From Mya arenaria (taxonomy: Eukaryota > Mollusca > Bivalvia > Myida > Myidae): 64,000 nucleotides of DNA. Position numbers and translations under genes: made by a program. Positions 27,201 through 64,000 of this stretch are shown one piece after another (the first letter of the stretch is position 1; each line of letters begins with the position of its first letter). Location: NCBI RefSeq assembly GCF_026914265.1, contig NC_069126.1:74279232-74343231 (forward strand). Direction: 5' to 3'. The notes beneath the pieces were generated by a model that saw only the letters and a list, made by a program, of their open reading frames with translations, was not told where the DNA came from and ran no database searches.

Positions 27201-30200
27201 AGTCAGTCTATACTCTAATTTATAACACGAGTTAGCATAAAACCTATTATTCTGGTTAGATATTTACAACAATACTATGACACTATTTAATGCTGGCGAC
27301 GTCAAATATGATATTAAATATTTTGTAATGTTTTTCTTTTCGGCATATGTATGGTGTTTGGTACCTTTTAACTATTAATAAAAACAATAAACATATCATT
27401 TCATAGAGGTGGTAATATACGTACATTTACATTTTATTAATTTTCTGTCTGATTCATTGTCACTGAAGATGTCCGTCTTTTGTGTGCAAATAATATATTT
27501 TGAATTCCATTCTCTCTTCGCATTTACATTCAGTGTCATCTGAATAGTATTTGTGTTAGTTGTTGTGTCATTAACTGATATAGTCTCTGAGGATCCAGAC
27601 ATATTCCTTCCTTCAATCATAATACTTAATCTAGATGTTGGCCGCCCTCCCTTTGAAATACACGTGATGTTGGTTGGCTCACCCTCCTTAAGCGTAGGAA
27701 CATGGAGTACTGGCTTTTGGGGCTTAACTGGTAATACAGAAAATAATATCTCCGACGTAACACTTGATAATACATACAGTCCAGTAATAGACAATCATAA
27801 AAATATCGGAATCTTATCAATTTTTGAAAAGTTTTAATCAAAACTATAGAAATAATAGTATGAATGCTAAATAAAAAATACTTTGAAACTAGAATTCAAT
27901 CAGGTTTGTTCAACTTATTTACCTGCAACATAAAGTATGGCCGAAGTAATTAGCGGCGTATCTACAGCTGCATTTTCAACACTGCATACCACTCTTGTCA
28001 TGTGATCTTCGCTTTTAACTGTATAATTTGGAACATACCGATTGGAATCTTTGCTTTGATTAACAGACAGTTGTCCACGCCTATTATTTTTTTCAATATA
28101 TAGATGTACATTCAGAGTCGCTCCGCCGGTTGTGTTACAAGATATAAATTTTCCAAGATTTCTTTCAGCCTTTGCAACTAAACAGTCCAAGCAGGCGTCA
28201 ACGTGGACATTCGAATGTAAAGACGGCCTTCCAGGAGGAACTAAAACAAACAAACCAGCTGTATCGTTAATCACTTGCGATTTAATAAACACAGCTTAAT
28301 TCTAAACAAAAGTTATATGTTTTAACTAAAACCAGACAACAGACAAAATACATTACTACGGGCACTAAAATTGTTAAATATTGGTTATATTAAAAAACAA
28401 CATTGAGTTGACTTGTACCCTTAAACAGGGTTTATTTTAGACTTCTTGGGTATTCTGTGAAGTTTCCATTGTATATTTGTTCGTGTTGACTATCGTCCTC
28501 AAAAGATACACTCTTATTTATGAAATAATGTCATAGTAATCTCGTGATTATGCACAGTAATATACAGCATTACAATTATAATGAATTTTGTGCAAGTTCA
28601 TAATAAGGGTGTTTCAAAAATACACCAGATTTTGTATAAAGGCATGCCCAAATACTATACGACATTACCAAAACATAAGCATGCATGTAGTGTTATACTG
28701 GCCGGCAGTTAAAATTTGTCAATCAAGTGTCCGAACCCTTTGTTTAAGACGATTAAAAAACGACCCTTTCAAATTTATTAAAAATACGCACATTTTGTTA
28801 TTGTGGTTTATAAATGTATAAGTACATGATAGTAATTGACGTTATTACTACTTCTCAAATATCTCTCGGATCTTGCTTTGCTTAAAATGCATATAACATA
28901 TGTATCTTATGGTAACATGCTCATTTATCTTATTCATTTTCAGAGCACACAAAAATAAACTTCATGAAACTGTTTATATCAACAATTTGCAACCAACCCT
29001 TAAACATTTGCTACATTAATAATTCATAAATAAATGTAACTTTATACATTATATTTGTTTATAAAGTACATGTTTGTCATATGATATGTCTCTGTTCAAG
29101 GCAAATACAACATTAATATTTTGCTTATCGGTTGTTTGTCCGTCCTCAATGATAATTTAAACAATATTTCATAAAAGAATTAATTTAAAGTGTAAGATAC
29201 TGATTAATAATAGTAATCATATTATATATGTCGAACCTATTGTGTTATCCTTGTATATCTGGATACATATTTATCCAAAACGTCATTCAAATAAATGGGT
29301 TTTTTTGTATAAAGAGAGTGTTGGTAAGACAAAAACAATGTTCTTAGGCGTTTCTTTCTTAACTTAACGAATCAGAATGTTATTTAATAGTTCAGCCAAA
29401 GAACGATGTATCTGTAGGAAATTAATCAAAAAAGTCAATTTGAGATAAATAACATGAATTATAAAAATATGTATTCATGTCAGCTTGTTTAAACACTTTT
29501 TTCGTGTCATTTTTACATATCTTCAGTGCATTAATGGCTTTTGTTTAGAAATTTAGTATGTTTTTCAATTGAAAAACTCTAACACTCTCTCATATTTCTA
29601 AAACCACAAAGTGGATCAATTGTTTAATGTCCTAGTCATGACAAACGCTATTTGAACTCAGGTTTACAAATACATATAATGGCATATCATAATGAATTAA
29701 CGATTGATTGTTCTGTAGAAGTATGATTTGTGGGCCAAATGATGCTTTTTCACAAAACTCTTAGATACTTATGACAAGGATCAGTACTTAATGCATAACA
29801 AAAACGAGTATTTATAAGAGTTGTACAATTTGAGTTCCCGTTCTAAGTCGTTTATTTAGATAATTATCAAATGCGTGTAAACGTCCATTTCGACAACGCA
29901 AAATTTAAAAACACATGTTCGCTCTAGTAGGGTCTTCGTTAAATGTTTGGCTACTGAGCTTGTCCCTGTAGTTTTTTTCACTTTCTAATTGTATAAAAAC
30001 AATACTTATTGGTTTAAACTGATATCGTTTACCATCTGTATGGTCATATAAAGTTACCAAGTATCGATGATTATATGTTCCTGAATTTCACATCCACTAT
30101 CAACTGATGACACGCCTTCAAAATAAAAGAGATGTTGCGAAACACTACTTCTACGGGTACGTGTACGTGAGAACTACGTTTTGAGCACTACGTCAACCAG

Positions 30201-39620: not shown

Positions 39621-40181
39621 ATGGATCGGCAAAACAAATTAATACAGACATTTACTAACGGATTGATGACTCCAGGACCACCAATTTTCTATGTTCCTTT
39701 TGGGCTAAAATCGAGCAAAATCAAAGATTCAACATCCTCAAGCATTCTTACAAAGTTTATCAATGAGGAACAGTTTAAGCTTGAGGACGATGCAGCGTAT
39801 ACCAACTTTATTAAGAAACACAAGAAACAAATCTACGATGATATTTTTGAATCGACATTTTCTAGCGATGGTCAATATATGGAAAACCGTTACACACCTG
39901 AGGTTTTAGAAGAAATGCTTTCAGAATTTGACGAAAGATTTCCATCTTCACTTTTTGCAAGTGAAAGCATTTACGAGTTTCTAAAGCTTGTACTCTTAGA
40001 GTATTTTAATACCGATCAAAGTCGTGTGAACATTATGGCTAAACGATTGAAGGAAATGTACACAAAGGTGAAATGCAGGAAAAGGGCTCGCGAAGAGGAA
40101 CCAATTACAGAATCGATGGGAGTTGCAAGCGACGATGACGATCAAGAAGATCAGTTTCTCACAAAAAGACCAAGGCTGTAA
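39621..40181 (+). CDS. Unrecognised 186-aa protein, virus-like block
   Basis: I do not recognise this protein. It has no membrane segment. The middle is acidic and helix-prone (LEEMLSEFDERFPSSLF). The tail has a basic run (KCRKRAREEE), an acidic patch (DDDDQEDQF) and ends KRPRL, which together look like a nuclear-localisation tail. A polyadenylation-type AATAAA lies at 40,290. It is the first gene of a plus-strand series that continues with a kinase 140 bases downstream. Confidence 0.6.
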   Translation: MDRQNKLIQTFTNGLMTPGPPIFYVPFGLKSSKIKDSTSSSILTKFINEEQFKLEDDAAYTNFIKKHKKQIYDDIFESTFSSDGQYMENRYTPEVLEEMLSEFDERFPSSLFASESIYEFLKLVLLEYFNTDQSRVNIMAKRLKEMYTKVKCRKRAREEEPITESMGVASDDDDQEDQFLTKRPRL

Positions 40182-40322: not shown

Positions 40323-41204
40323 TTGGTTTCAAATATAATGAAAGTGGGTCTAGTATATAAGGATCTAAAAGAAATGATTACCTCATTCATTTTCGTTAAA
40401 AACAAACACAAGATGAAAGCTCTCAAACAAAACATAAGCATTCAAAACTATATCGATAAGGGATCGACTGGTAAAGTATACCAGGCTCGGAGAAGAAAAG
40501 ATGGAAAGTCAGTTGTCGTCAAGTTTGCAACGTGGTTAAAGTCAAAGAATCGCGTACCCCCAGAAATATTTAACTCGTTGAGGTTAAGGAAATGTGGTGT
40601 TCAAGGTGTGAACAAGATTTTAGGCTATGAAATACAACGGGAACATTCGCCAGAATGTGTTGGAAGGTATTATGCTGTATTTGAGAAGCATCCAATGGAT
40701 ATCTTTACCTACGTTGAAAAATATGCGCCCCCAGAACCTGTCGTGAGAGACATAGTGAGAAGTACAATCACGCATTTGTGCGAAATGGACAAAAAAGCTG
40801 GAATGATGCACATGGACATCAAACCCGAAAACACTTTGATTGATCCTGATACCATAGGGGTAACATTGTGTGATGTAGAATTTTGCGTAAAAACCGGCGA
40901 GGAATTCATCCCCATGAAGGAAAGCGAAGGAGGGACTATCGCGTTCATGGCACCTGAACGATTTTTAGGTCTATGCTTTCCTCGTAAAACATCTGTCTGG
41001 TCAATCGGGATAATGACATATGCCATGTTACATGCAAACGATGTTCCGTTCGAGAAATACATTGGTAACATCTCCCTTCCTATTCGCTTTGATAGCAGTG
41101 TATCCACACAGGCTTCTGACTTCATCCTGATGTGCCTTCAACCAAACCCGAGAAAAAGACCAACTGCAGATGAACTTTTGGATTGTGAATGGATGAAAAG
41201 TTGA
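40323..41204 (+). CDS. Ser/Thr protein kinase, virus-like block
   Basis: A single-domain protein kinase of about 260-290 aa. It shows a glycine-rich loop (KGSTGKVYQA), a Lys strand (SVVVKFA), the catalytic loop HMDIKPENTLI, and an APE-type motif (GTIAFMAPE), then SVWSIGIM and a C-terminal Arg-containing helix (NPRKRPTADELL). A TATA-like TATATAA at 40,354 makes the in-frame ATG at 40,413 (MKALKQN) a better start than 40,323. The plan is like PIM/CAMK-type kinases, but I would not assign a family. It lacks introns, which fits a virus-carried copy of a cellular kinase. Confidence 0.8.
   Translation: MVSNIMKVGLVYKDLKEMITSFIFVKNKHKMKALKQNISIQNYIDKGSTGKVYQARRRKDGKSVVVKFATWLKSKNRVPPEIFNSLRLRKCGVQGVNKILGYEIQREHSPECVGRYYAVFEKHPMDIFTYVEKYAPPEPVVRDIVRSTITHLCEMDKKAGMMHMDIKPENTLIDPDTIGVTLCDVEFCVKTGEEFIPMKESEGGTIAFMAPERFLGLCFPRKTSVWSIGIMTYAMLHANDVPFEKYIGNISLPIRFDSSVSTQASDFILMCLQPNPRKRPTADELLDCEWMKS
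40354..40360 (+). promoter_or_regulatory. TATA-like box before the first kinase
   Basis: TATATAA lies 53 bases upstream of the ATG at 40,413. Spacing fits a TATA box with a short leader. It falls inside the longest reading frame and is the reason for preferring the later start. Confidence 0.45.
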
Positions 41205-41347: not shown

Positions 41348-42727
41348 ATGGTGTACCAAACTACTGACTTACTCCCCATTCCATTTTTACAGAGACATAA
41401 TTTGGCAAAGAAAATACTGAAGCAGGCAAAATCTAATGAGATATTTACAGGTCTACAGGATTTTATCGAAGTTTTGCCCGGGTCTGAGTTCACTACATAT
41501 CCGTTAGAAACGAGTGAAGATACGTTTTACAAATCTCTATCCATTGTAATTTTTGCTGATGAAATACATGCTAGGGTAATTAAAAAAGCTGTAGAAGAAT
41601 ATGCTAAGGTGAACGAAACTCGGTTTCATTCTATGTTTCGAGAGGAAGCTCCATATGGGGAAAGTTTTAAAGGTGTTTGTGATTATTTGCAACGATCATC
41701 GGCAAACAGATCTCAAGCGTCATACATAGATGTTTATGTCGCCGCAGACTTACTAAATACAACCATTTTTCTTTTTGAGACAGATAATTGGTCAACGCCT
41801 CATTCATTTAGACCCTTATCACTGAATCAATGGGAAAATCGAGGCATCATGTTATCCATTGAGCCAACGGGCGATGGTCATACATTTTTGTTTTCTCCTG
41901 TTGTTACGTATATAAGACAGTTAGAAACCGGCATGTTTCACAGTTTACAGAATTTGGATATATTTGACGACGATTGCGAAGCAGATCTTAAGTACCACAT
42001 AACGCTTCTTTCCACAGATAAATGTAACAGTATAAGCATTCCTTTCCTCATCTTGAAACGTTTTTCGCCAAGTCTTTCTGAATTTATTGGCGAATGCATT
42101 GAGACAGCATTGTCAATAGAAGCTTTAAAAAGATTTAAAAGGTTTTTGCTTAGTTTTGGTGCAAATATAAAGTTGGGACTCGACTTTGAGCTTTATGAAT
42201 TTGCAAAGAAATGGAATATACAACTCATAACTGACGATATCTCAGAGGTTATCGAACAGCGTAGTATCGAAGATGTTGTGGATTTCGTTAATCACATCTC
42301 ACTCTGGCATGACTCCGATTTATATCGACACATAAAAAAACGACTTTACCAGGCAAAACCTCATGAATTAAAGTCCATACGGATTAATTCAAATTCAGAT
42401 ACCCATAACAATTTGAGTGAATTTCTCATGACATTAAGCGATTATAAGGAATGCTCAAAACCACTAACACAAGACTATGAATTTCCGCACGTTGTTCTTA
42501 ACTTCAACAAAAGTGACAAATTCACAAAGTATTTCAATGGAGAAAAATGGTGTCCTCTTTATACGTCTGAACAAGCAAAATCTCTGATTCCAATGATGGA
42601 TACTAATAGATGTTGTATATTAGACGACACCCTATTTTTGCTCAACAAACAGAATGACATATTGGAAATTCAGTTGATAAACTCTGTTGAAACCGTTCTA
42701 AAAAGACAGTATTATCAAATGAGATAA
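41348..42727 (+). CDS. OTU-like protein with a C-terminal BTB-like region, virus-like block
   Basis: 459 aa. Residues about 50-200 have the order of strands and helices of an OTU cysteine-protease (deubiquitinase) fold: the block around FYKSLSIVIFADEIHARVI, YIDVYVAADLLNTTIFLFE, and GDGHTFLF, where the family's His strand lies. Residues about 230-350 resemble a BTB-like fold (FELYEFAKKWNIQLI followed by a BACK-like helix pair). Virus OTU proteins remove ubiquitin or ISG15-like tags from host immune factors. Whether this one is an active protease is not judged here. It lies between a kinase and a small open frame that may continue the same protein's theme. Confidence 0.5.
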   Translation: MVYQTTDLLPIPFLQRHNLAKKILKQAKSNEIFTGLQDFIEVLPGSEFTTYPLETSEDTFYKSLSIVIFADEIHARVIKKAVEEYAKVNETRFHSMFREEAPYGESFKGVCDYLQRSSANRSQASYIDVYVAADLLNTTIFLFETDNWSTPHSFRPLSLNQWENRGIMLSIEPTGDGHTFLFSPVVTYIRQLETGMFHSLQNLDIFDDDCEADLKYHITLLSTDKCNSISIPFLILKRFSPSLSEFIGECIETALSIEALKRFKRFLLSFGANIKLGLDFELYEFAKKWNIQLITDDISEVIEQRSIEDVVDFVNHISLWHDSDLYRHIKKRLYQAKPHELKSIRINSNSDTHNNLSEFLMTLSDYKECSKPLTQDYEFPHVVLNFNKSDKFTKYFNGEKWCPLYTSEQAKSLIPMMDTNRCCILDDTLFLLNKQNDILEIQLINSVETVLKRQYYQMR

Positions 42728-42738
42728 AACAGCCAAGG

Positions 42739-43137
42739 TTGGCTCTATGCAACGATAATGCCACAATTATGGTCATGAGTGATGAGAACCTAAAACTGGT
42801 ATGTGAAATAACAACATCAAATGATCACGAAACGTTAGTTACTGACTTAAAACATGTATCTACAGAAGACTTCAAATTTCGTTTCATAACCGATGAAGTA
42901 ATTTTGTACAGCATCGAGAACAAACAGTGTGGTATGACCACATGCGACTCTTCATCTCAAAATCTGATTGGGATAGATGAAGACAGATGTTATTTGTACC
43001 ACATAAGCGACAGAGAACTAACAGTAGACCATTTTAAGTCAAACTGCCGGGTAGCAGAAATTCCGCAGTTACAGTCGGGAAAGTATTTACTTTTATCTAG
43101 AAATACATTCGAACAACATTTTTCGGAGTTCTACTGA
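42739..43137 (+). CDS. Unrecognised 132-aa frame, possibly kelch-like, virus-like block
   Basis: I do not recognise it firmly. It is rich in short beta strands (LVCEITT, VILYSIENK, RCYLYHISDREL), like degenerate kelch or beta-propeller blades. It follows the OTU/BTB-like gene closely. BTB and kelch parts often occur in one protein, so the two may have been related, but this is an inference. Confidence 0.4.
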   Translation: MALCNDNATIMVMSDENLKLVCEITTSNDHETLVTDLKHVSTEDFKFRFITDEVILYSIENKQCGMTTCDSSSQNLIGIDEDRCYLYHISDRELTVDHFKSNCRVAEIPQLQSGKYLLLSRNTFEQHFSEFY

Positions 43138-43185: not shown

Positions 43186-44064
43186 ATGTCGAAGCTTATG
43201 TACTTTAAGGATAATTTCGTCTACTTGAACAACGCGCAAATCTCAGTATTTTCTTTAATATTTCTGCTATACGGTTTAATAAAAACAAAGAAATTCTTAA
43301 AGTTTTACAAACTAAAGTTTTTTATTGTTTTTGTGTTACATTACTACTCTTTAATTTTAAATGGAATTCACAGCATGATATTATACCACAACGTTTACAA
43401 CGCATCGGTAGCGACAGAAATATGCATGTTTTGTCTGATGCTCATAAGTTTTATCACATCATTAGTCATCACATATCGGTATTATCTGAAATACATGTAT
43501 TCAATGATAACAAGGATGCATTTTAAAACAGTTTCTAGACTGATATTACCGCTGTTGTGTTGTAAAAAGAAGAACAGAGATTATTATGACTATGATACAT
43601 TAAACGAAAATGAGGATGAGGAAAATAACGAAACTCCCTGTGATCAAGAAGATGATGAATGGTTTCGATACATAAATTATCAAATACTTGGAAATTACCT
43701 CTTTGCTCAAGTGTTTGTTCTTTTTTCGTTGTCAGTAACATACCTCGTACGAGCGGTTGCAATCTCAAGTAATTTGATTCCTAATGCGCAATTAGCTCTT
43801 GTATCATTGGGTATGCTAGTATTTTGCGCAATTTGTTGCTTCTTTGACTGTAGCTACCGTAGATTCACAAAATCTCTTATATTACCGCATCTATCAATGT
43901 TACAGTTATTAGGGACTTGGATGTTCGAACATTACACGAATTATGACAAAAGACCAGAACCTTTGTCTCTGATCACAGTTATTCTTATTTTTATGTACAT
44001 TGTTGTTAAATTTGCTTTTCTGACAGATGTTTCTTACGAAGAACGATTGGCAAAAAGACAGTAA
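43186..44064 (+). CDS. Seven-pass membrane protein, virus-like block
   Basis: 292 aa. I count seven hydrophobic segments: about residues 16-33, 43-63, 79-100, 162-185, 197-220, 231-247 and 260-280. A large acidic loop (NENEDEENNE and DQEDDEW) lies between segments 3 and 4. Herpesviruses encode several multi-pass proteins (glycoprotein M, seven-transmembrane receptors, UL/US families). No signature lets me choose among them. The gene ends six bases before the end of the minus-strand kinase gene, so the two are tail to tail. Confidence 0.65.
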   Translation: MSKLMYFKDNFVYLNNAQISVFSLIFLLYGLIKTKKFLKFYKLKFFIVFVLHYYSLILNGIHSMILYHNVYNASVATEICMFCLMLISFITSLVITYRYYLKYMYSMITRMHFKTVSRLILPLLCCKKKNRDYYDYDTLNENEDEENNETPCDQEDDEWFRYINYQILGNYLFAQVFVLFSLSVTYLVRAVAISSNLIPNAQLALVSLGMLVFCAICCFFDCSYRRFTKSLILPHLSMLQLLGTWMFEHYTNYDKRPEPLSLITVILIFMYIVVKFAFLTDVSYEERLAKRQ

Positions 44065-44070
44065 GATTGG

Positions 44071-45911
44071 CTAAGTACCAACCTTTGAAACTTCTGAAAT
44101 GATCAAACCATTTAAATGTTCTGACGCAAATGCTATTTCATCGTTGCTTTCTTGTAAATTGTAAACTCTCTCATTAGCACATTTCAACCAATTATTGAAC
44201 GTTAAACAATTGGATGTTACAACTTGTATTAATGTATCCATAGCAGTTTTCATTGCTCTTTTTGTTTGTTGAATTTGATCCCTTTTATTCCCCAACTTTT
44301 GATGATCGAAGAAATCTAAATGCTGTTTGAAATAAAATATGTTTTGGGCTAAATTGTCTTTATCTTCTGAATACACATCTAATGGCAGGAGTGCCGTGTT
44401 CACCTTTTCCTTCAACTTATCAATGCACTCACGAAAATTTTGATTTGGCAAATGTACCCTGAAAAAATCTTGGATAGCGCAGTCAAACATTTGGAATCGC
44501 GTCTCTAGCTCAGTTCTAAGATTATTCAGAAACTTTAGATGGACAACACTTGTCTGGCGTATGAAATGAAGGTATTTTTGAATCAGTTCAAATTTCTTTA
44601 AGACAATTGAACACAAGCATTGAAATTGCTGAAAATTGACGTCGGTCTTATCAACGAACGCAGTTTCAGTCGCAAAAAGACCTTCAAGAATTTTTTGAAG
44701 GTTTGTTTTGCTTTCGATATTTGTTTCTTTACATACAAGTAGAGGTTCATCAAACGATGTTTTTGGTATGACTCTTGACCGATTGGTAAGAAACTCGTTC
44801 TTGTGAACTATAAAATGCGTTTGACCATTTAGCAGTTTGGTTAAAAGAGCAGACAGTGATTTATCTTTACTATCACATTGTATTGTGTGCATTTTCATGT
44901 TTGTGACATCAAACACATATACAATATCACCATCTAATTTTGTAGTTCGCGCTTTTTCAAAGTATTCACTGAATTTTATATCCTTTCGCATGAGTGATAT
45001 AAGAAGTGGTTCAAAAACATCCTTTAAGAATTGATTCTCCATTCTGTTGTATCCATCGAGGGTGATATGGTACTCTGCTGTGTTGTCAGGATTTAGTTTC
45101 ATCCAAAGACAACCATCTGGTATTTCTTGTGCAAGTCCTATCCAATTAAGTTTTGACCGAACGGGTTTGTAAGGATGCCTCCCTGTTGCTGAAAAGAAGA
45201 ATGTTAAGGCCAATGACCAGAGATCTGTGTGGATGCTTTGTTTTACACCGTTTGATTTATGTGATTGTAATTGTTCTATTAAATCTGGACGCATAAAATC
45301 AATAGTCCCGGCTATTGGCTCTTCTATCGTTAACGATTCTCTGTCAAACGTGTTGGCCATTCCAAAATCAGTTAGAATAAACATCTCTTGTAAATCATCA
45401 AACATAATATTTGATGGCTTTATGTCACGATGAACTACAGCTCGTTCGTTTACGAGGTACACTAGAGCTCGCGTCATGTCTCGGATTAATGACATGACGC
45501 GGATCTGTGAGAGTCCAAGATGATTTTCGACATTCCTTGTTACTAGCTCTTCCAAATTTATGGTATATACTTTCAAGATTATCGTTAAAGTATCACTCAG
45601 AGAATGAACGCATTCTATGACGTTCTCATGATGGAACATTTGAGCAAGGAAAGTTCTTTCGTATATTCTGTTTCATTTTTAAAGAGTTTTCCAGCATACA
45701 GGTGACCTATTGTGTGATGGTAAAACAACTGAACATTCCCAAACGAACCTCTACCGAGTAGAGCAATGTGATCAAATGGCCAATATAATTGGTTTGTTTC
45801 TAAAACTGTGCCGTGATCTTTGATAATGACTTTTTTCGTTATAGGATCTATATCATTTGATGGTGCTTTTCTTTTTCGATTGGGCATTGTAAGATTGTTA
45901 ATCAACAACAA
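44071..45911 (-). CDS. TBK1/IKK-epsilon-like kinase, virus-like block (fossil, about one break)
   Basis: The region encodes about 600 aa with the full order of parts of TBK1-type kinases. There is a short basic N-terminus, a glycine-rich loop (LLGRGSFGNVQLF), a Lys strand (YAGKLF), VVHRDIKPSNIMF, ILTDFGMA, GTIDFMRPD and DLWSLALTFFFSATGRHPY. After the kinase domain comes the family's own sequence around FEPLLISLMRKD, a ubiquitin-like segment (about 115 aa) and a long helical dimerisation region. TBK1 and IKK-epsilon phosphorylate IRF-type factors downstream of STING and MAVS. A copy in a virus-like block suggests interference with, or rewiring of, host interferon-like signalling. The cellular gene has many introns; this copy has none. 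It appears to have about one break. Confidence 0.75.
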
Positions 45912-45952: not shown

Positions 45953-48084
45953 TCATGGATATAATTTTCTGCCAGAAATTTGAGTCCAACATGTAAGACC
46001 TAGCCAATTTCTTAATTCAACAGAGGGAGTAAATACCTTTGCCATATAGACACTCATTACAAGTGCCACTATAAGATCATCCGTCGTTGTATGACTTTTA
46101 CCACTGAATTTCTTTTCTTCAGGAGATAATTTAAATTCAACCATGTTTTGTCTTAGGTACTCTATTTCGTTTTTCTCGCCCTCATTCAGGTAATGAGAGT
46201 GAAGCAATTTTGAAAACCATATCAACTTTTCGTTTAAAAGCACTATCGTTTGTGAAAAATTGTCAATTTGTTGATCAAACTATAACCTGCACGCTTAATC
46301 ATTCGTTTCGTTGATCGATCTTCAACTGGAGTATAGTATAGCAAAACATTGCTTTCAGCATTCATCAAACACTCTTTCAGTTTTTCGTAGATAATAACAA
46401 CACTGTTCCTTTGTGAATTGTTCTCAACTGCAACAAAAATATTTCGCTGTGTTATTTTTCTGTTTCCATCGAATGTTCTCTTTTTTGACGCAACCAACGA
46501 AACATGCTGTATACATCGCAACAACATTTTAACCATGATTTCGTTTACTTTTCCTAATTCTTCAGACTGAATGAATTTGTGATCGAGGTACAAAATACAT
46601 GGGGATTCTTCTTTTGTCATGCCACTGGCCAGAAGACCTATGCCGCTTTGCAAGGAGTCGCAATAGTTTGGATCTAAGTAAATAAATACGTTTTCTATGC
46701 AGTTAGAGTCGTCGATAGTATTTATGTTGCTTTTCATGTACGATAGCAATCGTTCGGAAAAAGGACACATTTTAGCCGTCCCAAATCTGTTCAGAGTACC
46801 AGCAAGAGATACAATGCCAAGTTCATCATCGTAGCTTGTGCTAGATTGTGCCAACAGATTGGTTAAATACCTGTTCGTTTCATTGATGTTGATATGATCC
46901 GGCTTATAAAAGATCAAACGTGGACATGCAGGATATTTGGAAGAATACTGTAAATGACTAGCATTGTTACAAAAGTAGTAGATATGATAGAAATTAATAT
47001 CTGTTCTCAAACTCAAACCTCTTGTCACTTCGCACATTGTCTCCACTTTATGATTCACCGGCGATGTCAGAAAAATGATTTTATTGTCAGTCTTCTGTCC
47101 ATGTGCTAAGATTGTCCCGAAGCGGTTCTTATTGATAGAAAATGATTCATCAACAATGAGCAGATGGAGATCGTCCCCTCTCAAAGCATTGTCATTTCTG
47201 GCACTTTTGAACTTAGCAAGACAATTGAAATCATCGTCTTTCGCGTTCGCGTTTGTAAATACTGTCGTGTTCTGCCCGTTTAAGATTTTCACGAGAATCG
47301 AATCTGTAGGAGTCATTATATCATATCTTGACTGAGTGAGCTTAGTGCTCCATTCGTTACACTTTGAAATCACATAATTTTTCACAGTTTGGGACAAATC
47401 TTTCGTATGGGAATAATATCCTATTCGTAAACCACTAGCCATGTAAGTGAACAACAGGGCGACGAAGGCCGATCCAGTCATGAAGGTTTTTCCATGCCTC
47501 CTCGGAATAATCATATACGCGTACTTACGAGTATAATAGCTTAAAATACCGTCCAAAAAGGACTCTGAAATATCAAGTCCCATTTAGGAACGACAAATGG
47601 CAAGGAAAACGGGTTTACAAACAAGTGCCTCTTTTGACAGTAAGTGAAAGAAAATTTCAAAGAAAAAAGACTTCTGAAACATTTCATAGTGTATGTCCTC
47701 AGTTTTTGCCATTTTATGATATAAACTAATAAAATCCAGGAAATTGGGCTTGTGCCTCAAAACTTGATTTATAAACGAGCACGTTGATGCTTCGTTTTGA
47801 GACCTTTTCACAAATGAATATGTTCTATCTTTGAGGGAATTTTGGTTAAAAAAATTAACTGGTTCCATAAAGTCATACGAGTGTTTCATAAACAGTCGTT
47901 CCCATAGAAAGACTTCTTCCCTTAGCAAGAGATTTCCAACGATATTGGAGTGGAAAGGAATCTGACCCCAAAGAATGGTGTTAACAGAACTATCCACGGA
48001 AAACATTGGTGAACTATTCAATGTGTTTATCCATTCAAAAGAATTGAAATCAACAATACGATTATGACAGTCAACAATATACAT
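45953..48084 (-). pseudogene. Herpesvirus-type terminase large subunit (fossil, about two breaks)
   Basis: The region reads as the ATPase/nuclease subunit of the DNA-packaging terminase (UL15 family; ORF109 in the oyster herpesvirus). The Walker A region MIIPRRHGKTF is the Herpesvirales signature, followed by GLRIGYYSHTKD as in UL15. The Walker B region is LHLLIVDESF, and KIIFLTSPVN is the coupling motif. The C-terminal part has the TDDLIVALVMSVYMA nuclease-domain end. The upstream part (FLWERLF, FEIFFHLL) is probably the N-terminal region. The terminase cuts concatemers and pumps DNA into capsids. It is the best family marker of the block. About two breaks. Confidence 0.85.
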
Positions 48085-51322: not shown

Positions 51323-52339
51323 TCAAATCAGTTTCACCATCATGTCAACCAACCATACAGAAGACTTATTACTTTGGAGGAATAGTTTTACTTTTTCGTA
51401 TAATATTTTGCTTCTGAGCGACCGACATTGCTGTTGTAAAGTTTCGCTGTCACTCCGGATTGATTCCAGTTGTTCCCTAAACGATGAAATATCTGTATGA
51501 ATATCACTTGAGACACCTTCATACAATAGTTCTCTGTTTTTTTGACATTCGGGAAAAATTGACAACAGCACTGTAATCGCATGTTGTGTATTCCGGCAAA
51601 CAGTTCCGGCATCTCTGACCAAAATATTTCGTTGTTCAGGAACAATTTCCTCAGATTTGAATCTCTTTAACAAATTGTTTGATTTGACGAGTACATTTTG
51701 CATGTCATTAAACAGGGAACAAGCCAAATCTTGCAAAGCTTGATTATTTCTTAGTTTAGTTTTCGCCGCAGAAGGTATACCGTTTTTGCGTTTTCTTTTT
51801 TCTGAAGCCAGTTTCTGTGGCATAATAAGCACATGATGATGTTTCTGAATGGTATCTTCGCAGATTCCAAATGCGCGTTGTATGATTTGTATGATATTTT
51901 CTGCCTTTATTTGCTTTTGTACAATCATTTTCAAGTTCTCGAACACCGCTTTGTTATCACCAAATGCAGAGTAAAGGTACACAAGCTTTTCTCCAAAGTC
52001 TATTGTTGATGATATCTCGTTGGCGATTGTCAAAGCCATAGTATTCCTGTCATAGTTGTTAAACTCGACTAAACTAAACTGTTTATCTTTTTTATATTGT
52101 GCAAAATTAGAATTTCTCAAAAGAATGTCGAGCGATTCGTTTTGACATTTACTTAGTACTTTGGCTGGTTTATTCAGCTCAGGGAACCAGAATTTCTTTC
52201 TTAGATATTTTTTCAACTTTTTACATTTGAGTTTTATCTCATGAATTTTTGCAATAAACTCGGGTAGAAGAGAAAAGAATTTGGTCGAGTGATTCTGTTC
52301 CATGATTTGAAGTGTATAATCGACACTGAAGATATTCAC
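51323..52339 (-). CDS. Family-330 protein, copy 1, virus-like block
   Basis: About 320-338 aa; the Met of MEQNHSTKFFSLLPEF is the likely start because copies 2 and 4 begin the same way. It is not recognised. Conserved features in all copies are KQFSLVEF, TIANEISS, a helical middle with a basic KLASEKRKRK-type patch, LLKRFK, IFPECQKNR and a helical end (LQQQCRSLRSK). It is all-helical in appearance with no membrane segment. The basic patch could be a nuclear signal. It is first of at least four tandem minus-strand copies. Confidence 0.65.
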   Translation of the reverse strand: MNIFSVDYTLQIMEQNHSTKFFSLLPEFIAKIHEIKLKCKKLKKYLRKKFWFPELNKPAKVLSKCQNESLDILLRNSNFAQYKKDKQFSLVEFNNYDRNTMALTIANEISSTIDFGEKLVYLYSAFGDNKAVFENLKMIVQKQIKAENIIQIIQRAFGICEDTIQKHHHVLIMPQKLASEKRKRKNGIPSAAKTKLRNNQALQDLACSLFNDMQNVLVKSNNLLKRFKSEEIVPEQRNILVRDAGTVCRNTQHAITVLLSIFPECQKNRELLYEGVSSDIHTDISSFREQLESIRSDSETLQQQCRSLRSKILYEKVKLFLQSNKSSVWLVDMMVKLI

Positions 52340-52421
52340 CTTTATTAGGTGCAGAAAATAATGAAACTAAAAACTGTGTGTGTTTCATTTGAACATTTTA
52401 TTTCAAGAACAAATTTTTTCA

Positions 52422-53393
52422 TCACATTTTATATTCTTCAATTTTTTTGAGTGATATAAGACAACATGTATGCTTGTTAATAATGCGTGTAAACATTTGA
52501 AACACAACGCTATCACTGACAGAACAGCATTCGTGTTGTAAAGCTTCAGCAGCACTTTTGTTACGTTCCAGTTGGTATCTCAACGATAAAATTTGTGACT
52601 GTATATTTGTTGAGGTTTCTTTTTCGAACTCTATTCTGTTCTTCTGACAATCCGGAAAAATCTTTAAAAGAATTTTTTTCACATCTTGATTGCGCAAGCA
52701 AATTTTGCTCGCATTCTTTATAAGTTTCTTTTGTTTGGGATCGTCGGCTTTGAATCGTTTCTGCAAACCATTTGCTTTATAAAGTGCATATTTAATGTCA
52801 TTCATCAGATTACAAGACATTTCTTGTAAGGTGTGACTCTTTTGAAGTTTCGTTTTCACCTCAGACGATATATTCATATTCTTGTTATATTTTAACTTCG
52901 TGGAGGCCAGTTTTTGAGGCACTACGAGCCCAATATTTGGCTTCTGAGCGATATCCTTACTCATTCCAAGTTTGCCTTGAATGATGGTGATGATTCGCCT
53001 GGAATGTTGTTGATTCCGTACGCTGAGTTTCACACTTTTGAAAATGTTCTTATCCTTACCAAACGCAGCATAGTGACACAAAAGTTCTCTTCCTATGTCT
53101 AAATTTGATGATATCTCGTTTGCGATTGTCAAAGCCGCCATATTCTTATCATAGGTGCAAAACTCCACCAAACTAATCTGTTTATCAGTTTTATGTTCTG
53201 CAAAATGTTCGATAAGTTCGTCACACGAGAATTTTTGACATTTACATAGCCTTTTGACATGACAGAACAACCATTTGACACCGTTTTTCTGCAGAAGAGA
53301 TTTAAACATTGCACAATGCTCTCTTGTTTCCTCAATCATTTCGATAAATTTGGGCAATAAAGAAAAATATTTGGCAGAATGACCTTGTTCCAT
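52422..53393 (-). CDS. Family-330 protein, copy 2, virus-like block
   Basis: 323 aa starting MEQGHSAKYFSLLPKF. It shares with copy 1 KQISLVEF, ALTIANEISS, QKLASTKLKYNK, a KRFK motif and IFPDCQKNR. Identity by eye is moderate, so the duplication is not recent and the copies have diverged under a shared pattern. Function is unknown. Confidence 0.65.
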   Translation of the reverse strand: MEQGHSAKYFSLLPKFIEMIEETREHCAMFKSLLQKNGVKWLFCHVKRLCKCQKFSCDELIEHFAEHKTDKQISLVEFCTYDKNMAALTIANEISSNLDIGRELLCHYAAFGKDKNIFKSVKLSVRNQQHSRRIITIIQGKLGMSKDIAQKPNIGLVVPQKLASTKLKYNKNMNISSEVKTKLQKSHTLQEMSCNLMNDIKYALYKANGLQKRFKADDPKQKKLIKNASKICLRNQDVKKILLKIFPDCQKNRIEFEKETSTNIQSQILSLRYQLERNKSAAEALQHECCSVSDSVVFQMFTRIINKHTCCLISLKKIEEYKM

Positions 53394-53562
53394 GGTGAAG
53401 ATACAAATGTATAGTTAATACGAAAGTTTTTCACATTTATATTGTACCAAATATAATGAAATTAAAAGTTAAAATTCAAACGTTAGTCCATACACATGTT
53501 CAAAATCGATTGAACCTTACTAATAAACTGAATACAACATTCATGTTTATGGATAAATGTCC

Positions 53563-55075
53563 TCATCTTTGTGTAAACCACTTTACAGCGAACTGAACGA
53601 CATTCTTGGTACAAAGTTTCGCTATTATTCCGGATTGATTCAAGTTGTTCATAAACGATGATATAGCTGCACGAGTATCACTTGAGACAACTTCGTTGAA
53701 TACGACTCTCTTTTTTTGACATTCGGGAAAAATTGACAAAAGCACTTTTTGGGCATTTTGTATATGCCAGCAAATTGTTTTGGTATCCGTTATTATTTCT
53801 TTGCGTTCAGGAATTTTTTCGTAGGATTTGAATCGCTTTAACAAATTGTTTGCGTTGGCGATCGCTTGTTTTAATTCATCGAACAGCGAGTTTGATAACT
53901 TCTGCAAAATTGGATTATTTTGTATTTTTACTTTTACATCAGAAGGTATATCCTTTTTACATCTTTTTACTTCTGGAAACAGGTTCTCTGGCACTGCAGC
54001 AGGTATATCCTTTCGCTTTGTTTCTCTGGCATAATAATTCCTTCACATTGATTCGTGCTTTCGCTGACACCAAATATGCGATCCTTTTTTCCAAAACATT
54101 TCAAGTGTGTTTCAATTTTATCAATCGACCGAATAGAACACTTGTGCTTATAGATAAATAATTTCATCCGATTAAACACTAATTTGCTGTCGATGGAATG
54201 AGATTGATCTTTCAAAATTTGGCTACTTATCGTTATTGATTCTAATTCTTGTTTCAGCGACGAAATGTCTGTATGAATGTCACTTGAGCTAGTTTCGTCA
54301 ATCTGCGTACTTTTTGCACATTCGGGAAAAATCGCCAAAAGTCCTGTTTGTACAAATTGAATGTTCCAGCAGATTGTTTTGACATATCTTGTCAAAACCT
54401 TTGGTGCAGGAATCCTCTCGTCCAGTTTAAATCGCATCCACAAATTGTCCGCTTTGACATACGCATGTTTTAATCGATTGAACAGAGAACAAGCCAAATC
54501 CCGCATAGCTTGATTATTTTCTATCTTTATTTTCACCTCAGACGGTATTCCTTTTATTTTTTTATTCATCTCTGAAGCTAGTGACCGTGGCATGTTAAGC
54601 ACATCATTTGACTTCTGAGTGGTAATTTCGCTGATTCCAACTGAGCTTTGAATGGAGCTTATGATTTGTTCTGCCTTTTGCTGCCTTTGTACCATAACCT
54701 TTAGGATCAAGAACTCATCATTGTCATATCCAAACTTTGAGTAAAGGCAAACGAGCCTACTTCCAATCTCTAAAATCGATGATATATCGTTGGCAATTGT
54801 CGAAACCATAGTATTCTTGTCAAAGTTGCAAAACTCCACAAGACTGAACTGTTTATCTGTTTTATGTTCCGCGAATCTGCAATGTCTCAAAAGCATCCCC
54901 AGCGATTTATTTTGACATTTTCTGAGTTCCTTGGCAGGTTTTCGCAGTTCAGGATACACAAATGGTTTCTAATCAAGTCTTTTACACAACTTATTACATT
55001 TGAGTTTTATATCTTGAATTTTTTCAATCACCTCTGGCAGTAGAGAATAAAAATCAACTTTACTCTGTTCCATAT
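53563..55075 (-). pseudogene. Family-330 proteins, copies 3 and 4 (fossil, incomplete)
   Basis: The region holds a nearly full-length fourth copy, whose N-terminal start (MEQSKVDFYSLLPE) is near 55,072, and an incomplete third copy nested against its end. Motifs KQFSLVEF, TIANDISS, IFPECAKS and IFPECQKKR mark them. I count about two or three breaks. Copies 1 and 2 remain open, so the family was decaying at one end while the other persisted. Confidence 0.6.
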
Positions 55076-56414: not shown

Positions 56415-56829
56415 CTGGTTTGCTTAAATTTGTGAGTCGATTTGTCATAAAAAGAGTAAAATGTATGATAAGATGCTTAGCATCTTCAAATAATTTGACA
56501 TTCATCTTTTGGTTTGACAAATAATAAGAGTGAAATGTATGATAAACTGCTTAGCATCTTCAAATAATTTGACGTTCATCTTTTGGTTTGACAAATAATA
56601 GAGTGAAATGTATGAGAACTGCTAAATGTCATGAATCGATTTGACACTTAGCATTTGGTTTGACAAATAATAAAGTGAACTGTTTGATAAATGCTCAGTA
56701 TCATGAATCGCTTTGATATTCATCAATTCGTTTTACTAATGAAAAAATGATTTATTCATTCGCGACGATTTCTTAATTTTCACAAATGAATGGTATCTCA
56801 TTCTATTTTCTGTCAAATAAACCTTAATG

Positions 56830-57470
56830 ATCTGCATGTTTTTTCCAGGAGATGAAAATTTCATGAAATGCAAAATGTTCATATTCAATTTTTATTCTCA
56901 AAGATTTTACTCATTGTGTCAAGTCAATGAAACTGGCGTTCACACAAGATTTAAAAACAAATAAAATCGTCATATTGCTTTCATTCATTTGATGTTTTAT
57001 GAAGATTTTGCATGTTTTTTCTAGGAGATGAAAATTTCATGAAAATGCAAAATGTTCATATTCAATTTACATTCTCAAAGATTTTACTCATTGTGTCAAG
57101 TCAATGAAACTGGCGTTCACACAAGATTTGAAAACAAATAAAATCGTCATATTGCTTTCAGTCCTTTGATTTTTTTCTAGGAGATGAAAATTTCATGAAA
57201 TGCAAAATGTTCATATTCAATTTACATTCTCAAAGATTTTACTCATTGTGTCATGTCAATGAAACTGGCGTTCACACAAGATTTGAAAAGAAGTAAAATC
57301 GTCATATTGCTTTCATTCATTTGATGTTTTTATGAAGAATTTGCATGTTTTTTCTAGGAGATGAAAATTTCATGAAATGCAAAATGTTCATATTCCATTT
57401 TTATTTTCAAAGATTTTACTCATTGTGTCAAGTCCATGAAACTGACGTTCACACAAGATTTGAAAACAAA
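56830..57470. repeat. About 155-bp tandem repeat, block 2
   Basis: About four units of the same repeat as block 1, with variants of the 'catttgatgttttatgaag' spacer. Confidence 0.85.
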
Positions 57471-58620
57471 TAAAATCTTCATATTGATAATTATGAGACA
57501 ATCTGTGGCTATTTGGCATGACAAAAAATAAAGTGAAACATCAATGAGTTGTGATGGTTTACATTTGGACATTTTTTCAAGTTGATCTACAAATGGACGA
57601 ATACTCTATTCATATTGGATGATTTACTTGCAGTGTGTTGTAAATACTTAGTCTCAAAACATATTAACCATTCTCTCAGTTTTGATTTACAAATGATAGA
57701 GCAGAACACAAACACAGTGCTTAAAATTATGATTTATTTGACAACTTTTCAAATTTTTCAAAATTTTTGACTTTGGATTTTCATCATAGCGCATTCGTTT
57801 TTTAGCTATATACTTACCAAAGCGCATTTGCGTTTAAGCGATGTAGTTTTTTCACGCTGAGTACCCCCCTTATGAAACTTTTTTTTACATTGAATTTAGA
57901 ACGATTTATTTGAATCTCAAAATTAAGCACACAAAGTGACGATGTACAAATATTTTGGGATGACGAGATTTTGGCTCGCTCGCCCGACCAAACTAAAAGA
58001 CTTATAGATATACTTTAAGTCTTTCAGTTGGGCTGGGCGAGGTAACCAAAAAGCTCGTCACCCTAAATTATTTGTACATCGTCACCTGGTTTGCTTAAAT
58101 TTGTGAGTCGATTTGTCATAAAAAGAGTAAAATGTATGATAAGATGCTTAGCATCTTCAAATAATTTGACATTCATCTTTTGGTTTGACAAATAATAAGA
58201 GTGAAATGTATGATAAACTGCTTAGCATCTTCAAATAATTTGACGTTCATCTTTTGGTTTGACAAATAATAGAGTGAAATGTATGAGAAATGCTAAATGT
58301 CATGAATCGATTTGACACTTAGCATTTGGTTTGACAAATAATAAAGTGAACTGTTTGATAAATGCTCAGTATCATGAATCGCTTTGATATTCATCAATTC
58401 GTTTTACTAATGAAAAAATGATTTATTCATTCGCGACGATTTCTTAATTTTCACAAATGAATAGTATCTCATTCTATTTTCTGTCAAATAAACCTTAATG
58501 ATCTGCATGTTTTTTCCAGGAGATGAAAATTTCATGAAATGCAAAATGTTCATATTCAATTTTTATTCTCAAAGATTTTACTCATTGTGTCAAGTCAATG
58601 AAACTGGCGTTCACACAAGA
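57426..58620. repeat. Long repeat unit, direct copy 2
   Basis: Nearly identical to copy 1 without the 453-bp segment. It includes the palindrome at 57,936-58,085. High identity points to recent duplication or gene conversion. Confidence 0.9.
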
Positions 58621-59095
58621 TTTAAAAACAAATAAAATCGTCATATTGCTTTCATTCCTTTGATGTTTTTATGAAGATTTTGCATGTTTTTTCTAGGAGA
58701 TGAAAATTTCATGAAATGCAAAATGTTCATATTCAATTTTTATTCTCAAAGATTTTACTCATTGTGTCAAGTCAATGAAATTGGCGTTCACACAAGAATT
58801 GAAAATACAAATAAAATCGTCATATTGCTTTCAGTCCTTTGATTTTTTTCTAGGAGATGAAAATTTCATGAAATATAAAATGTTCATGTTCAATTTTTAT
58901 TTTCAAGGATTTTACTCATTGTATCAAGTCAATGAAACTGGCGTTCACACAAGATTTGAAAACCAAATAAAATCGTCATATTGCTTTCAGTCCTTTGATT
59001 TTTTTGTAGGAGATGAAAATTTCATGAAATGCAAAATGTTCATATTCAAGTTTTTATTCTCAAAGATTTTACTCATTGTGTCAAGTCAATGAAAC
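58505..59095. repeat. About 155-bp tandem repeat, block 3
   Basis: About four units. The chance frame at 58,775-59,092 (two near-identical peptide blocks) is a product of the repeat, not a gene. The block abuts the stop codon of the RING gene. Confidence 0.85.
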
Positions 59096-60076
59096 TCAAT
59101 ATGTTAAATGCATGGCGTGACTGCCATTGATTTTTCCCCGGCAGTAGGAACAAAGTCCATTGATTTTGATCATCTTTTCCACACATGTATGACAAAAGGT
59201 GTGAGAGCAAGGAATAAGCACGGTATCCTTTTCAACTTGAATGCAGATGCTGCATGTTTTGATGTTGTTGCACGCTTCATCCTCAGCTTCTTTTATTGAT
59301 CTTTCCATAACATCAAGAAGTATTTTCTCGCGTTGAATCCATTCACGTTCCTTCGTTTTCATTTTCTCTTCAGCTTTGACCATCGTAGCGAGTGTTGAAT
59401 GTAATGTTCTAACCTTTTGAAGTTTGCTTATTGTTTGTCGTACGACAACCTTGCACGTTTCATTTATTTCACTATCAACCAACATTTTGTATCCGTTGTG
59501 AAGCCATGAAAAAAACCCATCCATTGTCGATGTTAGTTGGCCAGGCGTCTCTGACACTTGTCTCCGGCATGGACTAGTAGGACGCTGTGACCGCCTCAAG
59601 TTGGTATATGGTCGTTGTCGCCTCGAAAGTCGCACAATCCTGGCTGAAAATATAAATTGGTTACTGTGAAAAAAAATCATGTTTTATTTTTGTTCTTTTT
59701 CCACAATTTTTACAGTAGCCAAAAGTTAGTTTCAGATTTTGTTGAAAAAAATCACAAATCTTGACTTACCATCATCTACTGGAAGATCCTTGTCGTATGA
59801 GTACAGAAACCGTGCTGTACTTATTATTTCTGCGATGTCGTCGTCCGTACATAACATTTTGATTTCATCGTCGTAAAGATCTAGCTTTGTTTTCATGGGC
59901 AACTGCTTTGGACAACCACCTATGTGCTCACTCTGTGTTTCACATGCATTACACTGGATGATACTGTCAAGCTGAAGTATCAGATGTTCGGCTTTTTCGA
60001 TGAGACCGGCAGATTTAAGCCTGTTATATTTTGAGGACAGTTTGGCGTTCATTGCGCTAAAAGACATCTTTGTCAA
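59096..60076 (-). CDS. Two-exon RING-finger protein between inverted repeats
   Basis: Exon 1 is 60076-59770 and exon 2 is 59643-59096. The donor GTAAGT and a pyrimidine-rich CAG acceptor give a phase-1 join that keeps the frame, for 284 aa. The N-terminal part is helical with a Cys/His cluster (CNACETQSEHIGGC). The middle is coiled coil (KAEEKMKTKEREWIQ). The C-terminus is a C3HC4 RING: CSICIQVEKD, then CSHTFCHTC and CSYC. RING proteins are E3 ubiquitin ligases, and malacoherpesviruses carry several. An intron argues for a host origin or a captured host gene. It is intact and lies exactly between inverted repeat arms. Confidence 0.8.
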
Positions 60077-60129
60077 TAAAAAGAATCAGGATATGCATTT
60101 ATTTATATGTATGTCTATATTTGCATTAT

Positions 60130-61389
60130 TTTTGTACACAATGAGTTAAATCTTTGAAAATAAAAATTGAACATGAACATTTTGTATTTCATAAAAATTT
60201 CATCTCCTAGAAAAAAGATGCAAAATCTTCATAAAAACATCAAAGGAATGAAAGCAATATGACGATTTTATTTGTTTTCAAATCTTGTGTGAACGCCAGT
60301 TTCATGGACTAGACACAATGAGTAAAATCTTTGAAAAAAAAAATGAACATGAACATTTTGTATTTCATGAAATTTTCATCTCCTAGAAAAAAGTCAAAGG
60401 ACTGAAAGCAATATGACGATTTTATTTGTTTTCAAATCTTGTGTGAACGCCAGTTTCATTGACTTGACACAATGAGTAAAATCTTTGAGAATAAAAATTG
60501 AATATGAACATTTTGCATTTCATGAAATTTTCATCTCCTGGAAAAAACATGCAGATCATCAAGGTTTATTTGACAGAAAATAGAATGAGATACCATTCAT
60601 TTGTGAAAATTAAGAAATCGTCGCGAATGAATAAATCATTTTTTCATTAGTAAAACGAATTGATGAATATCAAATCGATTCATGACATTTAGCATTTCTC
60701 ATACATTTCACTCTATTATTTGTCAAACCAAAAGATGAACGTCAAATTATTTGAAGATGCTAAGCAGTTAATCATACATTTCACTCTTATTATTTGTCAA
60801 ACCAAAAGATGAATGTCAAATTATTTGAAGATGCTAAGCATCTTATCATACATTTTACTCTTTTTATGACAAATCGACTCACAAATTTAAGCAAACCAGG
60901 TGACGATGTACAAATAATTTAGGGTGACGAGCTTTTTGGTTACCTCGCCCAGCCCAACTGAAAGACTTAAAGTATATCTATATGTCTTTTAGTTTGGTCG
61001 GGCGAGCAAGCCAAAATCTCGTCATCCCAAAATATTTGTACATCGTCACTTTGTGTGCTTAATTTTGAGATTCAAATAAATCGTTCTAAATTCAATGTAA
61101 AAAAAAGTTTCATAAGGGGGGTACTTAGCGTGAAAAAACTACATCGCTTAAACGCAAATGCGCTTTGGTAAGTATATAGCTAAAAAACGAATGCGCTATG
61201 GTGAAAATCCAAAGTCAAAAATTTTGAAAAATTTGAAAAGTTGTCAAATAAATCATAATTTTAAGCACTGTGTTTGTGTTCTGCTCTATCATTTGTAAAT
61301 CAAAACTGAGAGAATGGTTAATATGTTTTGAGACTAAGTATTTACAACACACTGCAAGTAAATCATCCAATATGAATAGAGTATTCGAC
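60130..61389. repeat. Inverted arm of the long repeat
   Basis: Reverse complement of 57,590-59,090 with small differences: about 155-bp tandem units (60,130-60,545), the 'ggtttgacaaat' units, the palindrome (60,900-61,049) and the end word 'gaatagagtattcg'. Homology stops at about 61,389. Together with the left arm it forms a structure of about 3.8 kb around the RING gene. Confidence 0.9.
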
Positions 61390-63165: not shown

Positions 63166-63172
63166 TACAAAA

Positions 63173-64000
63173 ATGTTCAGTAACGAACAAAATGAATGTC
63201 TCCAAATGGCAGACAGTGGCCACAACTTCGTTATAACAGGCCAAGCCGGAACAGGCAAAACATACATATTGAACCATTTGTACCAACATTTTGTTTCTCA
63301 AAATAAAAATATAAGTGTAACTGCTACAACTGGTATATCTGCAACTCGGTATTCAAATGGACAGACAATACATCGCTGGTGTGGAATTGGAGATGGGAGC
63401 ATGACAGCAGAAGATCTTTGTAAATGTATTCCCGTAGAAGAAAAATATCAGAATACTCCAGACCGCATTTTCAATTGTGATATTCTGATAATTGGTGAAT
63501 GCTCTATGCTTAGCCAGAAGCTCTTTGATGCCATTGAATCAATATGCCGGTCTGTTCGGAAATCTAATACATTTTTTGGTGGTATTCAAATTATTATTGG
63601 TGGTGATTTTTACCAACTTCCACCCGTACCAGAAATAGTGTATGGTGAAACTGGAAAATTTTGTTTTGATTCTCAAAATTTCTTTAATGCAATCCCACAT
63701 CATGTCAACTTGTCAAACGTCTTTAGACAAACTGATTCCGAATTTATCAATTGTGTGAATGAAGTAGAGAAGGGTAATTTAACAAATGAATCCATCTCTT
63801 ATCTAAATGCTTTGTCAAAGCCAATAATTGAAGATGGAAATACGGTTCATCTTTTTGCCACTAACAATAAAACAAAATTATTCAACCATGACAAACTCAT
63901 GATAATCGATGGTGATTTAATGCTTTATAAAGCAAACGACGAAGGTGACAAATACTATTTGAATAAATTTACAGCGCCAGCTACTTTGGGATTAAAAAAG
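63173..64000 (+). CDS. PIF1-like DNA helicase, 5' part (runs off the window)
   Basis: 276 codons are open to the window edge. The ATG at 63,173 gives MFSNEQNECLQMADSGHNF, then motif I GQAGTGKT, motif Ia ATTGISATRYSNGQTIH, motif II region DILIIGECSML, motif III GGDFYQLPPV and NLSNVFRQTD. This is superfamily 1B of the PIF1/RecD type, which unwinds DNA 5' to 3'. Only 20 or so residues precede motif I, so no Rep nuclease domain is attached and it is not a Helitron Rep-Hel in this part. The first acidic residue of motif II (normally Asp-Glu) reads Gly-Glu, which would weaken ATP hydrolysis if real. Stand-alone PIF1-like genes are numerous in bivalves. No intron is seen. Confidence 0.8.
   Translation, partial: MFSNEQNECLQMADSGHNFVITGQAGTGKTYILNHLYQHFVSQNKNISVTATTGISATRYSNGQTIHRWCGIGDGSMTAEDLCKCIPVEEKYQNTPDRIFNCDILIIGECSMLSQKLFDAIESICRSVRKSNTFFGGIQIIIGGDFYQLPPVPEIVYGETGKFCFDSQNFFNAIPHHVNLSNVFRQTDSEFINCVNEVEKGNLTNESISYLNALSKPIIEDGNTVHLFATNNKTKLFNHDKLMIIDGDLMLYKANDEGDKYYLNKFTAPATLGLKK

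Follow-up and report, generated by a model that had tools for sequence, protein, structure and literature searches.

An interrupted TBK1-like kinase gene in a herpesvirus-like block of the Mya arenaria genome

The STING and RIG-I-like pathways meet in the kinase TBK1, a target that viruses are known to block, cleave or sequester. A cGAS/STING-TBK1-IRF axis is present in oysters (PMC8218723), and the target pathway therefore exists in likely hosts of the element described here. Descriptions already exist of malacoherpesviruses and of related genomes integrated in amphioxus (PMC2994540; PMC12373286; PMC5552708). This study examined a window (the whole stretch of DNA analysed, 64,000 nucleotides of Mya arenaria contig NC_069126.1, positions 74,279,232 to 74,343,231), in which the minus strand of 44071-45911 holds an interrupted gene for a kinase resembling TBK1 beside a herpesvirus-type terminase gene. 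Taken as a whole, the favoured reading, with a probability of roughly 0.6, is a fragment of an endogenous herpesvirus, now decaying in an animal chromosome, with a gene for an active TBK1-like kinase uncoupled from host control.

The malacoherpesvirus-like genomes integrated in amphioxus, an invertebrate chordate, resemble this locus in their affinity to mollusc viruses, their dense and mostly intronless open reading frames (ORFs) and their terminase (PMC2994540 and PMC12373286, in the portions available). They differ in that these portions mention no TBK1-like kinase (0 occurrences of TBK1 in that of PMC12373286, 0 of kinase in that of PMC2994540), and the window has only a broken fragment. 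Table 3 of PMC5552708 gives guanylate kinase and no protein kinase among the malacoherpesvirus-specific domains, and the Babylonia herpesvirus paper mentions neither kinase nor TBK1 in its main text. Kinases such as US3 and UL13 are likewise carried by herpesviruses; the herpesvirus kinases among the best 50 rows of a viral structure library differ from the present protein, however, in that none of these rows matches its whole architecture (template modelling score over the query ≤0.31). An earlier note on this DNA had stated that no herpesvirus was known with a TBK1 homologue, and this still holds for the best 50 library rows and for the literature matches listed, where no viral homologue appeared, though an earlier mention may exist.

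The kinase gene occupies two overlapping open frames (Table 1), and the two pieces were searched separately. The first piece, of 98 amino acids (aa), matched PF00069 at E 0.0056 and general protein kinases among the solved structures (best E 0.005), whereas the second, of 522 aa, matched PF00069 at E 8e-22 and continues for about 290 residues beyond the kinase domain. Searching 5.8 billion proteins with the second piece returned at least five close relatives among the matches listed: P0001 (613 aa, uninterrupted), P0002 (605 aa, 50% identical to the second piece), P0003 (619 aa, 30%), P0004 (495 aa, 32%) and P0005 (382 aa, 37%). Both window pieces are 98% identical to P0001, the first matching its N-terminal part and the second the remainder; the kinase gene is therefore interrupted here and uninterrupted elsewhere. 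A chance reading was ruled out by the structure and profile-profile matches given below and by a comparison with 200 order-1 Markov sequences, in which the longest open stretch reached 252 codons vs 533 codons in 39.6-48.1 kb. The next matches listed were P0006 (E 5.7e-13), a kinase without a name, and P0007 (E 3.3e-10), a TBK1 from a snail. With a profile search the family gained P0121, a Mercenaria mercenaria protein of 603 aa annotated as TBK1-like; below it the scores of the matches listed fall from 659 to 106 bits. The six members are a lower bound on the size of the family, since P0005 was not among the profile-search matches listed and more members are possible. P0004 and P0005 may be products of broken genes as well, because they are short and their similarity fades at the ends.

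Among all solved structures, the second piece matched TBK1 best (4jl9, E 6.5e-19, residues 33-290, PDB phmmer) over a range that takes in part of the ubiquitin-like region as well as the kinase; IKKbeta (E 1.1e-11) ranked after TTK (E 1.1e-12), with 71 bits for TBK1 vs 47 bits for IKKbeta. Profile-profile comparison of the six family members with 28 cellular TBK1s gave a probability of 100% and E 2.7e-44 over 414 columns. The family profile scored a median of 114 bits on 40 selected TBK1s, 70-71 bits on IKKbeta, and a median of 68 bits (maximum 111) on 229 other kinases from the protein searches. By these E values and profile scores the kinase domain is closest to TBK1, and a kinase outside the IKK family was ruled out by the sequence scores together with the fold of the post-kinase part. 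The earlier note had taken the reading for a TBK1-like kinase and not another kinase; the best solved match is indeed TBK1, and the gene product is very likely TBK1-like. It differs from IKKalpha and IKKbeta in the lower scores of IKKbeta and in the motif that follows the activation loop, which is A-P-E in IKKbeta and R-P-D in four of the six family members.

Directly C-terminal to the kinase, as in TBK1, a ubiquitin-like domain was recognised by profile and by fold model. Although Pfam TBK1_ULD stayed under its cut-off of 31 on the second piece (E 0.054, 13.8 bits) and was found in just two of the six members, profile-profile comparison with the ubiquitin-like domain of cellular TBK1 gave E 3.1e-6, a score that none of 50 column shuffles reached, and the fold model of P0001, built from family rows only, has the strands and helix of a ubiquitin-like domain at residues 329-395. 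Further helices follow in the model at residues 427-486, 491-507, 521-536 and 543-612, and IKK-family structures align with it as far as residue 608-613. The structure search with this model listed 50 entries, and the 26 with alignments of at least 460 residues are all TBK1, IKKbeta or IKKalpha. By modelled fold a scaffold/dimerisation domain is present, and dimerisation itself is predicted. The product thus has the three-domain architecture (kinase, ubiquitin-like, helical) of the IKK family in the wide sense, the helical part by model only. The claim of a post-kinase region in TBK1 order accordingly stood for the ubiquitin-like domain, by profile and model, and for the helical region by model, the predicted structure bearing out both; it did not stand for the helical region by sequence.

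Residues were compared in an alignment of the six family members, 40 TBK1s (39 picked from 120 listed plus one human stretch), two IKKbeta sequences and four other kinases. The ATP-binding Lys, the alphaC Glu, the HRD Asp, the Lys and Asn of the catalytic loop and the DFG Asp are kept in 6/6 family members. The activating serine of the activation loop, which we take to be Ser172 in human numbering, is Ser in all 40 cellular TBK1s and in two family members (P0004 and P0005); the other four have Pro, Phe, Lys and Ile, with Pro in the nearest relative of the window copy. The four full-length members measure 603-619 aa, vs 844 aa in a clam TBK1 and 711-853 residues in 39 cellular TBK1 records (one partial record of 451 excepted), and in the modelled P0001, of 613 residues, the last long helix reaches residue 612. 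Judged by these lengths, the C-terminal end of TBK1, presumably the part that binds adaptors, is missing from the family. In total, the family resembles TBK1/IKKepsilon, the innate immune kinases of metazoans, in best sequence match, domain order and catalytic residues, and differs from them in lacking Ser172 in 4/6 members and the C-terminal end, in a helical sequence that is not recognisable and, in the trees obtained, in its place outside the cellular TBK1s sampled. Because three of the features compared are lacking (helical-domain sequence, activating serine, C-terminal end), the product is not TBK1 in the strict sense, but a TBK1-like kinase of IKK architecture.

In the careful tree, the six family members form one clade (support 100/99) and the 40 cellular TBK1s another (100/98), a split that persisted in quick trees with the ubiquitin-like columns added. 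Holding the family with TBK1 as a whole was not rejected and gave a higher likelihood on the quick tree (p 0.866), holding it with the 18 mollusc TBK1s of paralogue group A was rejected (p 0.018), and holding it with the nine of group B was not (p 0.080); these p-values, from the approximately unbiased test on a quick tree with groups named after the tree was seen, serve as a guide only. The earlier note had looked to a branch next to bivalve TBK1 as a sign of host capture, and no such near sister of present-day bivalve TBK1 was seen in the trees or the test. On this basis the family is TBK1-like and old, and capture from one mollusc paralogue is compatible with the test (p 0.080). P0121, despite its TBK1-like name, groups with the family and apart from the further three TBK1s of Mercenaria that were sampled, and its present annotation could conceal a viral origin. 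Scans of viral contigs with the second kinase piece, the main terminase piece and the ORF at 41348-42727 returned no relatives, nor did a scan of prokaryote genome contigs with the kinase piece. The family alignment pointed to 35 loci in viral contigs, and the 12 inspected were set aside as non-relatives since a cellular TBK1 or CHK1 query outscored every family member there.

Identity between P0001 and P0002 is 60% in the kinase domain and 41-42% in the rest; between P0001 and either P0003 or P0121 it is 41-42% and 20-29%, respectively. This stronger conservation of the kinase domain suits selection on catalysis, and of the two roles that the earlier note had offered, decoy or constitutive modulator, the pattern leans to an active kinase. 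It is tentatively proposed, at slightly under even odds, that the intact protein would act as a kinase independent of the host activation step and of host adaptors, this freedom following from the missing activating serine and C-terminal end. With such a kinase the virus could bypass the STING/TBK1/IRF axis or misdirect it, and the enzyme would then phosphorylate host IRF-type or viral substrates and would not be a dead decoy. By analogy, either of two precedents from herpesviruses of vertebrates would fit: the UL13 kinase of pseudorabies virus phosphorylates IRF3, by which cGAS-STING output is blocked (PMC7493860), and in murine gammaherpesvirus 68 host IKKbeta phosphorylates and activates the viral transactivator RTA (PMC2912392).

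The main rival to an active kinase, itself unlikely, is a decoy or dominant-negative protein whose ubiquitin-like and helical parts would dimerise with host TBK1 or occupy STING, with kinase activity unneeded. Such a role would agree with the dimerisation-like fold retained in the P0001 model, with the loss of Ser172 in four of the six members and with the C-terminal end that the lengths show to be missing. However, a pure decoy needs neither the checked catalytic residues, kept in every member, nor a kinase domain conserved above the rest of the protein, and the helical region with which it would have to meet a host partner is unrecognisable by sequence.

The herpesvirus-like block that the earlier note had described was confirmed by the neighbouring terminase large subunit gene, of a type that belongs to Herpesvirales: its main piece matched PF02499 and PF02500 above cut-off and PDB 6m5v, which we take to be the terminase of herpes simplex virus 1, at E 3.1e-15. 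Since a different frame holds its C-terminal end, the terminase gene is broken too. Within 40-48 kb, 98-100% of the bases in each of four 2-kb bins belong to ORFs of at least 90 codons; before 38 kb the share is 0-43% in all but one of 19 bins, the exception having 64%. To the left of the block are 39 kb of ORF-poor, repeat-bearing DNA, to the right more repeats together with a PIF1 helicase ORF, and G+C is similar across the window (29-40% in 2-kb bins). Because of the broken terminase neighbour and the dense ORF block beside gene-poor DNA, the locus is most likely a decaying endogenised herpesvirus fragment in animal chromosomal DNA, and the element is probably of an invertebrate, malacoherpesvirus-like kind. 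The setting, as well as the break in the kinase gene, had escaped the earlier note: it looks like an endogenous element, not a virus genome. The kinase gene itself is likely viral property.

Table 1. Features of the herpesvirus-like block and its surroundings, in window positions
Feature	Position	Strand	Length	Remarks
TBK1-like kinase gene, first piece	45615-45911	minus	98 aa	own frame; N-terminal tail and kinase N-lobe (glycine loop, ATP-binding Lys)
TBK1-like kinase gene, second piece	44071-45639	minus	522 aa	other frame; HRD, DFG, activation loop, ubiquitin-like domain, long helical region
Ubiquitin-like domain	44722-44928	minus		P0001 residues about 329-397; converted by hand from the P0001 match, borders approximate
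Helical, scaffold-dimerisation-like region	44074-44709	minus		P0001 residues about 402-613; coordinates converted by hand
Herpesvirus terminase large subunit, main piece	46243-47583	minus	446 aa	PF02499 E 2.5e-10, PF02500 E 1.2e-9
Terminase, C-terminal piece	45953-46243	minus		other frame; PF02499 positions 296-341, E 6.7e-6
ORF, possible terminase N-terminal part	47584-48084	minus	166 aa	in the frame of the main terminase piece and upstream of it, stop between; no Pfam or PDB match
ORF, putative membrane protein	43186-44064	plus	292 aa	convergent with the kinase gene; hydrophobic stretches by eye; no Pfam match
ORF of the dense block	42739-43137	plus	132 aa	no Pfam match above cut-off
ORF of the dense block	41348-42727	plus	459 aa	no Pfam match; viral contigs gave no relative
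Second protein kinase of the block	40323-41204	plus		PF00069 E 4.4e-26
ORF at the edge of the dense block	39621-40181	plus	186 aa	no Pfam match
Tandem family ORFs	51323-52339, 52422-53393, 53563-53994, 53967-54959	minus		

A host origin of the kinase gene, as a divergent TBK1-like paralogue that came by chance to lie beside a herpesvirus-like insert, is improbable. In its favour, P0121 carries a TBK1-like name and sits on a 76-Mb Mercenaria contig, and three further TBK1-like proteins each were found in Mercenaria and Ruditapes among the matches listed. Against this, the window copy consists of pieces without introns inside, packed among compact ORFs with gaps of 6 bases to the convergent neighbour and 41 bases to the terminase piece, kinase gene and terminase are both broken, and the family is one clade outside all the cellular TBK1s sampled. 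More doubtful still is a viral gene domesticated by some hosts, which would keep an intact endogenous copy, possibly P0121, as their own antiviral regulator: this full-length copy on a chromosome-sized clam contig would agree with it, whereas the window copy has decayed and P0004 and P0005 are short, with similarity lost at the ends. An assembly artefact, with the frame breaks as sequencing errors or the block as a misjoined contig of free virus, has the same slight probability. The breaks in two adjacent genes and the near-identical uninterrupted P0001 would suit it, the repeat-bearing flanks and even G+C oppose it, and the homology holds with or without the frame breaks.

Several points weigh against the favoured reading of an endogenous herpesvirus fragment with a gene for an active kinase. 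The window copy of the kinase gene is broken, viral ownership rests on this one locus, and the Mercenaria member lies on its large contig under a host gene name. In the Pfam search of 30 window ORFs no herpesvirus gene besides the terminase was recognised; neither a major capsid protein nor a DNA polymerase was seen in this set, the window holding only part of the element. With regard to the protein, the profile of the helical region failed to find that of cellular TBK1 (E 0.17, with 8 of 50 shuffles scoring as high; five of the six members were long enough to be included), PF18394, the scaffold/dimerisation family of Pfam, matches 0/6 members, and the P0001 model is middling (predicted local distance difference test 68.1, predicted template modelling score 0.52), with root-mean-square deviations of 6.4-10.7 angstrom across its 26 full-length structure alignments. 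The loss of Ser172 in 4/6 members could equally mean an inactive kinase, and the alphaF Asp is replaced by Glu in five of the six. Finally, the careful tree joins the family to IKKbeta at weak support (83/58), not within TBK1, with a warning of long branches; this grouping was not accepted because of those branches and because family and TBK1 together are likelier on the quick tree.

Other features of the block and window were recorded alongside. The product of the convergent ORF next to the kinase gene is likely a membrane protein, and the second kinase of the block had TSSK6 (E 2.2e-13) and PIM-1 (E 2.9e-13) as its best solved matches. An element of the Teratorn type, a piggyBac-herpesvirus fusion, was considered; no transposase was recognised in the 30 ORFs run against Pfam, although one may exist. 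Rfam and tRNA searches of the window found nothing. To the right, the minus-strand ORFs of the tandem family (51323-54959) share 38-52% mutual identity and have no Pfam match above cut-off. A RING-finger ORF at 59096-59680 (minus, PF13920 E 5e-10) has a domain also given for bivalve malacoherpesviruses (PMC5552708). Tandem repeats with units of about 74 and 154-332 bases occupy 56447-60867; judged by eye, the 74-base unit at 56447 and 58118 seems to recur in reverse complement at 60699-60867, which would place repeat arrays of opposite direction on either side of the RING ORF. The PIF1-like helicase ORF (63101-64000, plus, PF05970 E 1.2e-34) reaches the window end and possibly belongs to a Helitron or is a host gene. 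To the left are a reverse-transcriptase fragment at 32725 and an immunoglobulin-like C2-set ORF at 27399-27794 (minus, PF08205 E 9.6e-9), perhaps a host exon.

Overall, the chances are about even that a lineage of invertebrate herpesviruses has long carried a TBK1-type kinase of full architecture without the host on-switch, a viral member of the IKK family acting against or for the STING-TBK1-IRF axis. If true, a complete TBK1-like kinase owned by a virus lineage would amount to a strategy other than blocking, cleaving or sequestering TBK1, and would reveal which parts of TBK1 are dispensable to a virus, namely the activating serine and the adaptor-binding end. The handling of the STING-TBK1 pathway by invertebrate herpesviruses would become directly testable. 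Additionally, the family gives a warning that some bivalve TBK1-like gene models may have a viral origin.
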